From Hyphomicrobium zavarzinii ATCC 27496 (GTDB lineage Bacteria; Pseudomonadota; Alphaproteobacteria; Rhizobiales; Hyphomicrobiaceae), in contig NZ_KB911259.1 of assembly GCF_000383415.1 (NCBI RefSeq), positions 213,007-277,006 of the forward strand: 64,000 nt of DNA. The letters run 5' to 3'. Shown in pieces: positions 58,230 through 64,000 of the stretch (position 1 is its first letter; every line of letters begins with the position of its first letter). A model generated the notes under the pieces. It had not been told where the DNA came from and did no database searches. It saw only the letters and a program-made list of their open reading frames with translations. Position numbers and translations under genes: made by a program.

Positions 58230-58925
58230 TCAATCGCGCTCGCCCTCGGCGAGCAAAGCGAGCTTCTTGAGGTCACGAATGAGGAGCTTCTGACGGCCGC
58301 CTTCTACGAGCCCGCGCGTTTCCCAGGCGCTCAGGATGCGGGATACCGTATGCAGCGTCGTGCCGGTCATCTGGGCGATATCCTGGCGGGAGATGGGAAA
58401 ATTGATCTGGATTCCCCCCTCCTCCTTTCGCCCCGCGCGCTCGGAAAGGCGCAGCACGACGTGCGCGATCCGCCGCTCCACCTCTTCCGTCGACATTTCC
58501 CGAATGCGCGTATGCGCTTCCTCGAGTTGCTTGCCGATGGTCTGAATGGCGTTGGCGGCAAGCTGCGCGTTCTGCTCGACGAACTGCGGCCAGAGCTCGT
58601 TCGGCCAGGACAGAACCTGACTTTCGGCAACGGCCGTCGCCCTCGCGGGATAGTCGACCCGCTGAAGCGCCCTCGCAAAGCCGAACAGGTCCCCGGGATG
58701 CACCATGCGCACGATGATCTGCTGGCCGTCGTCGGTCACCTGCGTAACCTTCAAGCGTCCGCTCAGCAGCAGATAGAAGCTCGTCGCCGCCTGCCCCTGC
58801 TCGAAAACCGCTTCCCCCTGCGGCACGCGCCGCACGGCTGCGCATCCGAGGAGATTGTCCAGGTCGGCATCGCTCATCCTATGGAAGACGGGGAGCGATC
58901 TGACGGCGGTTCGATCGATTTTCAC
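58230..58925 (-). CDS. Crp/Fnr-family regulator, NnrR/DNR-like
   Basis: A 231-residue transcription factor: cyclic-nucleotide-type beta-barrel (about 10-125), dimer helix (about 125-150) and a C-terminal winged helix. The HTH is ISRQDIAQMTGTTLHTVSRI, and the recognition part HTVSR is the form found in nitrite/NO-responsive NnrR/Nnr proteins, which bind TTGCG-type boxes. Only one Cys (28) is present, so no Fe-S cluster as in Fnr. The start is GTG at 58925; ATG at 58877 is an alternative. A matching box lies upstream of nirK. Confidence 0.82.
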   Translation of the reverse strand: MKIDRTAVRSLPVFHRMSDADLDNLLGCAAVRRVPQGEAVFEQGQAATSFYLLLSGRLKVTQVTDDGQQIIVRMVHPGDLFGFARALQRVDYPARATAVAESQVLSWPNELWPQFVEQNAQLAANAIQTIGKQLEEAHTRIREMSTEEVERRIAHVVLRLSERAGRKEEGGIQINFPISRQDIAQMTGTTLHTVSRILSAWETRGLVEGGRQKLLIRDLKKLALLAEGERD

Positions 58926-60108: not shown

Positions 60109-61245
60109 TCAGGTGCCGGTAGGAGCGACCACGGACGTCATGAGATCGCTGTTCCAATCTCCGGTGACGGTGAAGTGTGCCGCCGCCCCGAGTTCGAACG
60201 CTTCGATCAGGTTGTGGTTCACGTAGGCGTAGATGCCAGGCTGCTCGAAGGTATACAAAGCTGCACCCGCCGTTCCGCCGGGAATGAACCAGGTCTCCTG
60301 ATCGACATCCGGCGGATTGCGGAACTTGCCGGTTGCCCAGACATAGTCACCATGTCCGCCGATGAGATGCGGACGCGTGTCGCGGTTGGCCTGCGAGTGC
60401 ACGATCAACACCCGCTCGCCGACCGCCGCCTTGAGCGCATTCTCGCCCGTGAGAGCACCGACCGCGCCGTTGAACACGATGTGGCTCGGCGTGAGGGTAC
60501 GCATGACCTCGAGCACATCCGGATAGGCATCGCCCGCAGTCTTGTACTTCTTGTACTCGCCGTTCTCATCCTTCGGCACGTAGAAATCCTGCTCGCCGAC
60601 ATAATAGACGCGGTCGTAGGTGAGCTCCTTGCCGTGGCCGTCCGTCAGGCCCTCGCGCGGAAGAACCATGATGGCGCCGTTCATGCCGGACGTGACATGC
60701 CAAGGCACCATGCCCGGAGGAGCGCAATGGTAGACGAACACGCCTGCCTTCGTGGCCTTGAAGCGGAGCACCGTCTTCTCGCCGGGGTTGACGATGGTCA
60801 AACCGCCGCCGCCCAACGCGCCCGTTGCGGAGTGGAAGTCGATGTTGTGCTGGAGCGTGTTGGTCGGAGGATTGACGAGCGTGAGTTCCACGTAGTCGTC
60901 CTGGTGAACGACAATCATGGGGCCAGGAACGGAACCGTCGAATGTCATGGCGTGGACCTCAGCGCCATTGTCGTCGACGACGATCTTCTTCTCCTGAATG
61001 GTGAGCGTCACCTCGATGATCTTCGGGCCGCCCTGGGCCTTCTGCGTATGCTTGTGAACGAACGGCGGCTTCACCAGCTCGATCTTCTCGCGCGGCAGCT
61101 TGGAAATATCGACGGGAGACGCTTTCGCATTCGCAGCCGCATTCTCAGCCAACGTGGGCGTTGCGGTGAGCATAGGCGCCAAAGCGCCGACAAACGCCGA
61201 GCTCGCCAGCATTGTGCGGCGCGTCATGTTGTATTGCTCAGACAT
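60109..61245 (-). CDS. nirK: copper-containing nitrite reductase
   Basis: Reduces nitrite to NO in the periplasm. It has 378 residues. A twin-arginine-like signal ([13 protein letters not shown]) ends near ALAEN. Type 1 copper ligands are His133, Cys174, His183 and Met188; type 2 ligands are His138, His173 and His344. Asp136 and His255 match the catalytic pair. Motifs: [39 protein letters not shown] and [17 protein letters not shown] at 61245 has GGGAG upstream, and a strong regulatory site lies ahead. Confidence 0.97.
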
Positions 61246-61296
61246 CGTTTTCTCCCTTTTCAAAAGGATTGAGCGCACTACGCCCGATCTCCTTTT

Positions 61297-61338
61297 TTTG
61301 TAGGAGCATTCGCGTCATTCTCTTTGCGATGGCGCAAA
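61297..61338 (-). promoter_or_regulatory. nirK promoter with NnrR-type box
   Basis: A perfect inverted repeat TTTGCG-ATGG-CGCAAA at 61323-61338. On the minus strand, TACAAA at 61297-61302 is a fair -10. The predicted start is about 61290, so the box centre is near -40.5, the position of class II activators. The leader would be 45 bases. Confidence 0.75.
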
Positions 61339-63177: not shown

Positions 63178-63576
63178 CTAGCGGCCCATGTTTTCGAGCA
63201 CCGCCTTGAGAACCACGGCATTGTTGTGGTCCTCGTCGCGGGCGGCGAACAGCAGCGTCACCACCCCGAGATCGCGCCAGACCTTGAGCACGTTCAACAA
63301 CTCGGCATTACCGCGAAGCTCCTCGCGATACCGGCGCTCGAACTCCTCCCAGCGCCTCGGATCATGCCCGAACCAGCGCCTCAGTTCGGCGCTCGGGGCA
63401 ATGTCTTTCAGCCAGATGTCGACCTTGGCGCGCTCCTTTTGCAGGCCCCGCGGCCAGAGCCTATCCACCAGCACCCTGACCCCGTCGCTCTCCTGTGGCT
63501 CGGCATAGGCGCGCTTGAGGCGAACACGGCTGGTTTGGACCTTTGAGGCAGCATCCGGGGAAGCGGTCACGCGCAT
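63178..63576 (-). CDS. DUF488 family protein
   Basis: A 132-residue protein of the DUF488 family (YeaO-like). Motifs VRLKRAYAEPQESDGVRVLV, DRLWPRGLQKERAKVDIWLK, APSAELRRWFGHDPRRWEEF and VTLLFAARDEDHNNAVVLKA are all present. Function unknown; homologues are often linked with nitrite or NO stress genes. ATG at 63576 has GGAGA upstream; an earlier ATG at 63630 would run through the NsrR-like site and is unlikely. Confidence 0.9.
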   Translation of the reverse strand: MRVTASPDAASKVQTSRVRLKRAYAEPQESDGVRVLVDRLWPRGLQKERAKVDIWLKDIAPSAELRRWFGHDPRRWEEFERRYREELRGNAELLNVLKVWRDLGVVTLLFAARDEDHNNAVVLKAVLENMGR

Positions 63577-63590
63577 ATCAAATCTCCGAT

Positions 63591-63613
63591 AAGATGTATG
63601 CAACGGTTGTCTT
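63591..63613. promoter_or_regulatory. NsrR-like operator, weaker copy
   Basis: AAGATGTATGC, one base, then ACGGTTGTCTT: the 11-1-11 NsrR layout, with a good first half and a partial second half. It covers the -35 of the P460 promoter and lies 15-37 bases upstream of the DUF488 start codon. Confidence 0.6.
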
Positions 63614-63635
63614 TGCGGGGTGCGAGCCATAAGAT
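63607..63635 (+). promoter_or_regulatory. promoter of the cytochrome P460-like gene
   Basis: TTGTCT, exactly 17 bases, then TAAGAT. The predicted start is near 63642, about 103 bases upstream of the ATG. The -35 lies inside one NsrR-like site and the -10 inside the other. Confidence 0.6.
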
Positions 63636-63653
63636 GTATAAGTAATGCATCTT
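63631..63653. promoter_or_regulatory. NsrR-like operator, strong copy
   Basis: AAGATGTATAA, one base, then TAATGCATCTT. It matches the known NsrR pattern (AAGATGYATTT and its complement) at most positions on both halves. The centre is 40 bp from the other copy, so both would face the same side of the helix. Confidence 0.75.
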
Positions 63654-63654
63654 A

Positions 63655-63670
63655 ATCACAGACCTGTGAT
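63655..63670. promoter_or_regulatory. perfect 16-bp inverted repeat next to the operator
   Basis: ATCACAG-AC-CTGTGAT follows the strong operator by one base, just downstream of the predicted transcript start. It could be a second regulator's site or a leader hairpin. Confidence 0.5.
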
Positions 63671-63744
63671 CGTGCAACGCCACGTCTCGCAAGCAACGCG
63701 TCGCGGCGCGAACCGAGAGAACAAAAGACCTGGGAGGAAACTAA

Positions 63745-64000
63745 ATGTCTCGACTAGCTACGCTGCTCATACTCGGCCTCGTGGCCGGCACGGCCTACGC
63801 AGCCGACGAGCGCATCTCGTTCCCCGCGGACTACAAGACGAGTTTCACTAACTACCTGAGCCTCGATCGGGTTCAGAACGAGGACCAGATCATTCGCCTC
63901 TTCGCGAACCCCGTTGCACTGGAAGCCGCAGCCGCCGGAAAAGAGCTGCCCAACGGCTCCGTGCTGGTGGGCGAGATCTATGCCGCCAAGAAGGACAAGG
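63745..64000 (+). CDS. cytochrome P460-like protein, C-terminus off the right edge
   Basis: Only the first 85 codons are present. A signal peptide (about 1-19, ending AYA) is followed by ERISFPADYKTSFTNYLSLD, VQNEDQIIRLFANPVALEAA and GKELPNGSVLVGEIYAAKKD, which match the N-terminal domain of cytochrome P460, a c-type heme protein that oxidises hydroxylamine and NO. The heme site would be beyond the window. ATG at 63745 has GGGAGGAA upstream. Confidence 0.85.
   Translation, partial: MSRLATLLILGLVAGTAYAADERISFPADYKTSFTNYLSLDRVQNEDQIIRLFANPVALEAAAAGKELPNGSVLVGEIYAAKKDK

Follow-up and report, generated by a model that had tools for sequence, protein, structure and literature searches.

The NsrR regulon of proteobacteria and Bacillus, as presented in PMC1274295, includes hmp, nirK, hcp and norB; its binding consensus is the palindrome gATGyAT-N5-ATrCATc, and the paper's main text never uses the term P460. 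The Pfam family PF16694 spans both cytochromes P460 and cytochromes c'-beta. The N. europaea cytochrome c'-beta (PDB entry 7s5o) is treated in a 2025 review (PMC11928373), according to which its Met79, Ala109 and Arg46 occupy the positions of the P460 crosslinking Lys, the distal carboxylate and the capping residue, respectively; the word NsrR is absent from that review. No report of NsrR control of the cytochrome P460/c'-beta family was found in the open-licence literature, judged mostly by title, and a literature search on fdxA gave no mention of this gene among the matches listed. Control by NsrR, globin-type targets and sites in tandem are all known already, and the new part of the case described here is the target, a cytochrome c'-beta, and the lineage.

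The window, i.e., the whole 64-kb stretch of Hyphomicrobium zavarzinii DNA analysed, ends within a cytochrome gene preceded by what is very probably an NO-responsive, NsrR-repressed promoter of a cytochrome c'-beta/ferredoxin (fdxA-like) operon. The predicted elements are the following:

63178 to 63576, minus strand: divergent DUF488 gene (PF22752/PF04343)
63591 to 63613, plus strand: predicted auxiliary NsrR-like site with a perfect left half and a weak right half
63607 to 63612, plus strand: -35-like hexamer TTGTCT, covered by the auxiliary site
63630 to 63635, plus strand: -10-like hexamer TAAGAT, sharing five bases with the start of the downstream site
63631 to 63653, plus strand: predicted main NsrR-type operator, AAGATGTATAAGTAATGCATCTT, extending over part of the -10-like hexamer and over the probable transcription start
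63655 to 63670, no strand assigned: short inverted repeat ATCACAGACCTGTGAT directly 3' of the operator, with arms of a length reached in 3.8% of 500 shuffles
63732 to 63737, plus strand: ribosome-binding-site-like GGGAGG
63745 to 64000, plus strand: cytochrome c'-beta-like gene (PF16694, 82 bits), continuing past the window (full gene L005:2752-3255)

The half-site AAGATGTAT is present twice, at 63591 and 63631, 40 bp apart, just as the earlier note on this DNA had it, and both copies fall in the gap that separates the cytochrome gene from the divergent DUF488 gene. The downstream copy belongs to a complete dyad, AAGATGTATaagtaATGCATCTT, which has no mismatch to AAGATGYAT-N5-ATRCATCTT and contains the palindrome known for NsrR operators exactly. 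It is the sole match in the window at up to three mismatches, with none in 100 shuffles, and the 4.65-Mb genome (15 contigs) holds three sites at up to two mismatches and one more at three, while a reversed control pattern has no site across the whole genome. On a matrix made of 33 family sites with at most one mismatch, the own promoter's site being left out, the main operator scores 37.9, the mean of the training sites being 35.1.

The earlier note had read both copies as dyads, which stands for the downstream one; the upstream one is a half-dyad matching at 9/9 positions in its left half and at 4/9 in its right half, GGTTGTCTT, i.e., with five mismatches in total, so that the locus does not have a tandem pair of full NsrR operators. 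The upstream copy is not a second good operator but is probably more than chance: its score of 8.7 on the family matrix ranks second in the window, ahead of 6.5 for the next position (61226), and exceeds every maximum from 30 order-1 simulations of a 64-kb sequence (top score 8.05, mean of the maxima 1.2). The opposite reading, of a chance remnant beside a downstream site at which one NsrR dimer suffices, is possible, if less probable. It agrees with the five mismatches, with the single site found in G063, the sole other genome of the genus with the cytochrome gene (of seven others), and with the lack of a second site scoring at least 5 within 150 bp at 26 of 32 other strong family sites; it has to contend with the rank of the half-dyad and its position 40 bp from the best site in 64 kb, with two other genomes having sites 41 bp apart, and with the distances of the second sites at the remaining six strong sites, five of which are 42–46 bp away (two of the five in one genus) and one 35 bp.

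The two promoter-like hexamers are separated by 17 nt, and the placement proposed for them earlier holds, with the -35 inside the upstream site and the -10 at the edge of the downstream one; however, they match sigma-70 hexamers at only 8/12 positions (a poor fit), and a promoter scan of 63400–64000 found nothing. Tandem NsrR sites are also predicted to overlap the B. subtilis hmp promoter (PMC1274295). A repeat search of 63400–64000 found nothing of at least 12 bases. The inverted repeat past the operator is a possible 5' leader hairpin. Inverted repeats just past the operator are also seen in F. insigne (L016) and in the Methyloceanibacter loci L011 and L014 (one shared sequence), and the lengths of the repeats here and at these loci are each reached in 2–4% of shuffles; at eight other promoters examined for inverted repeats nothing unusual was found.

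The target is a protein of 167 amino acids (167 codons) with a CRQCH heme site, presumably exported, whose named relatives come mostly from Methyloceanibacter, Hyphomicrobium and Filomicrobium. A ferredoxin gene (fdxA-like), possibly co-transcribed with it, starts 42 bp after the cytochrome stop, beyond the window. The best-matching solved relative is 7s5o, and in the alignment with it Gly76, Ala106 and Arg42 stand at the positions of Met79, Ala109 and Arg46, the equivalences being taken from this alignment and the table of PMC11928373, between which a numbering offset of 20 was derived by hand. A set of 12 sequences shows no variation at Ala106 or Arg42. The protein resembles the N. europaea cytochrome c'-beta in its family, the absence of a crosslinking Lys, the distal Ala and the capping Arg, and differs from it in having Gly in place of Met at the crosslink position. 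With the cytochromes P460 of N. europaea and M. capsulatus it shares the Pfam family, but not the Lys crosslink and distal carboxylate (Lys70 and Glu96 in N. europaea), as judged via 7s5o and not from N. europaea P460 directly. Neither of two PDB searches with the target listed the latter (2je3), and chains named cytochrome P460 (6hiu, 9hrk) gave weak partial matches only.

Because Gly and Ala replace the crosslinking Lys and the distal carboxylate, the target is best called cytochrome c'-beta-like and not a strict cytochrome P460. A P460-type enzyme, as it was first described, is right at the superfamily level (PF16694), and a P460 hydroxylamine oxidase is rejected owing to the two missing residues. 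The protein should be free of a heme crosslink and, by analogy, should not oxidize hydroxylamine.

The genome has four Rrf2 genes, and a search of it for the NsrR (Rrf2) gene, expected by the earlier note to lie outside the window, found the NsrR-type one at C5:126544-126978, on the same contig and 86 kb from the window start, so that operator and nsrR gene occur together in one genome, as in an NsrR regulon. Its product has Asp8 and three cysteines arranged as C-x6-C-x5-C, and its best PDB match is the NsrR entry 5n07, the S. coelicolor protein (80 bits, against 36 for the best IscR entry). The NCBIfam models of NsrR and RirA give it 142.6 and 143.7 bits, respectively, both below cut-off (182 bits for the NsrR equivalog). 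An NsrR-type site with one mismatch lies between the regulator gene and a globin-like gene, the latter scoring 20.9 bits with the Pfam globin model against a cut-off of 21.

Binding of the operator by another Rrf2 regulator, e.g., a RirA-like iron sensor, in which case the operon would answer to iron or oxygen, is highly unlikely. Such a regulator could be argued for from the equal scores of the two models and from a second Rrf2 gene (L004), for which RirA is the best model. The product of L004, however, has Asn8 and is devoid of the C-x5/6-C-x5-C motif, while the gene adjoining the matching site codes for a protein with Asp8, and in relatives the genes found as neighbours or co-targets are globin-like ones, presumed flavohemoglobin-like ones and nsrR itself. 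Asp8 supplies the fourth ligand to the cluster in S. coelicolor NsrR, RirA has Asn8 instead, and the two proteins can be told apart by this residue (PMC10510648). Moreover, the motif equals the NsrR consensus (PMC1274295). RirA was set aside on Asp8 and the motif, though the HMM scores tie. In a check of residue 8, 33 of 42 rows were resolved, comprising 32 Asp and one Asn (L004), with nine rows lacking an assigned residue and several representing the same gene twice.

Across the family set of 103 genomes, the own one included, there are 34 sites with at most one mismatch, in 21 genomes. All 21 fall among the 39 genomes with an NsrR-type match (E <= 1e-30, genome lists compared by hand), at p about 1.5e-11, a value that is too small since it ignores the kinship of the genomes, and 22/34 sites are within 300 bp of an NsrR-type gene. 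The fdxA-like genes in G015 and G043 carry a strong site of their own. Another of the three sites in the own genome is the following:

G000:C4:482077-482099: NsrR-type site 17 bp before a 54-residue membrane-protein-like ORF (L007:1320-1484, minus strand)

This ORF has 17 family matches, four of them (own, G064, G017 and G018) with a site scoring at least 5 within 700 bp upstream and 13 without; Pfam gave no match for the ORF or its G064 and G017 homologues, nor did NCBIfam for the G064 homologue. Further gene types stand behind NsrR-type sites in relatives (L015, L019, L058, L059, L079 and L086), namely those for a rubrerythrin-domain protein, 5-formyltetrahydrofolate cyclo-ligase, a presumed MOSC-like protein and, next to nsrR, a presumed membrane-like protein with a DDGLL motif. 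L103 looks like a norB, NCBIfam giving it only a weak cbb3-type match. In the Methyloceanibacter sites L011:2415-2437 and L014:1956-1978, AGGTAT (AGGTAA in L014) and ATACCT replace ATGYAT and ATRCAT, and these variant half-sites may reflect a shifted NsrR specificity.

Homologues of the cytochrome at E <= 1e-10 number 26, in 22 of the 103 family genomes. A site scoring at least 5, a low threshold reached in the window by one position besides the two sites, lies upstream of 12/16 close homologues (at least 57% identity, own included) and of none of the 10 distant ones (32–51%; Fisher p about 2e-4, calculated by hand). Some of these 12 sites score low (6.5 in L017, 9.6 in L034), and the farthest is about 1 kb from the cytochrome gene, separated from it by further genes of the apparent operon. 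For six homologues the scoring used a named copy of the contig. The close homologues in G035, G087, G089 and G020 have no upstream site. Five further named loci divide into two with a site, L011 and L014 (the latter scoring only 5.1), and three without, L010, L013 and L018; the L010 contig reaches no more than about 185 bp upstream. The 12 homologues (36–49% identity) found among 384 other genomes of the class are all without a site, and conservation over the class is rejected on this count. Conservation in relatives, the absence of which for the pair would have counted against the earlier note, is broad for one site, found at 11/15 other close homologues, and limited to two relatives for the pair.

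The order nsrR-like gene, site, globin-like gene, cytochrome gene occurs in L017, L030, L031, L033, L034 and L036; L020 has the same gene order, but without a site. In M. marginalis (L011), and also in L014 (score 5.1), nsrR and the cytochrome gene diverge around the site. In L015 the site is followed by a presumed MOSC-like gene and then the cytochrome gene, and in L019 the intervening gene is presumed to be 5-formyltetrahydrofolate cyclo-ligase-like, its G017 counterpart being identified by Pfam. G017 has nsrR, a small protein gene, the cytochrome gene and fdxA together. The two relatives with a pair are F. insigne (L016) and G017 (L032), in which the sites have the same location, a spacing of 41 bp (40 bp here) and a -10 (TAACAT in L016, TAAGAT in L032) overlapping the downstream site in the same register as here; the F. 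insigne -35 is TTGCTT, with the same 17-nt spacer, and that of G017 is poor. NsrR-type control, the core of the earlier proposal, is well supported by the nsrR-type gene, the three genome sites and the conservation at homologues.

The divergent DUF488 gene may share control with the cytochrome gene. That the sites mainly serve DUF488, the cytochrome being controlled in passing, is unlikely: the strong site overlaps promoter-like sequence pointing toward the cytochrome gene, and a site precedes the cytochrome gene also in F. insigne, G017 and M. marginalis, where the stretch searched gave no match to DUF488. Such a role for the sites would accord with the weaker one being 14 bases from the DUF488 start at 63576, a start chosen from the GGAG at 63584–63587, and with G063, where DUF488 (divergent), the cytochrome gene and fdxA follow in the same order, the pair is not kept, and the single site is nearer the DUF488 match (about 131 bp) than the cytochrome start (275 bp).

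The operon is preferably regarded as an NsrR target in its own right, working as follows. In the absence of NO, NsrR with its Fe-S cluster in place would bind the full operator, covering the -10 and the region of the transcription start. It would probably occupy the weaker site too, 40 bp farther upstream and over the -35, where a second dimer may be added on the same face of the DNA, and the promoter would be shut. NO would attack the cluster, NsrR would be released, and the heme protein and the ferredoxin would be made, the former then binding NO or turning it over. The source of NO could be, for instance, NirK, encoded nearby:

60109 to 61278: nirK (copper nitrite reductase gene), 2.5 kb from the cytochrome gene
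61323 to 61338: NnrR-like palindrome TTTGCG-atgg-CGCAAA, upstream of nirK

This palindrome fits the NnrR consensus quoted in PMC1274295, and nirK may thus be under a different NO regulator; a looser NnrR-like pattern was found seven times in the window, with 4.1 expected, and so is not rarer than chance. A Crp/Fnr-type gene is present in the same window, at 58230–58925.

The locus shares with the known NsrR regulon (PMC1274295) the palindrome, an Rrf2 regulator and globin-type targets, and differs from it in the target, a cytochrome c'-beta gene followed by one for a ferredoxin. The NsrR-type site at this promoter, kept in several relatives, suggests that the haem protein is of help to the cell in coping with nitric oxide. 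The chances are about even that cytochrome c'-beta is a dedicated NsrR-controlled NO-defence protein in this methylotroph-related family of Alphaproteobacteria, encoded with a ferredoxin or behind a globin, and that part of the family relies on a pair of NsrR sites spaced by about four helical turns, with two dimers on one DNA face giving a sharper switch. A c'-beta gene behind a predicted NsrR operator, beside a globin-like or ferredoxin gene in relatives, ties cytochrome c'-beta to NO defence, a role that becomes testable, and the NsrR regulon is outlined for this family of Alphaproteobacteria.
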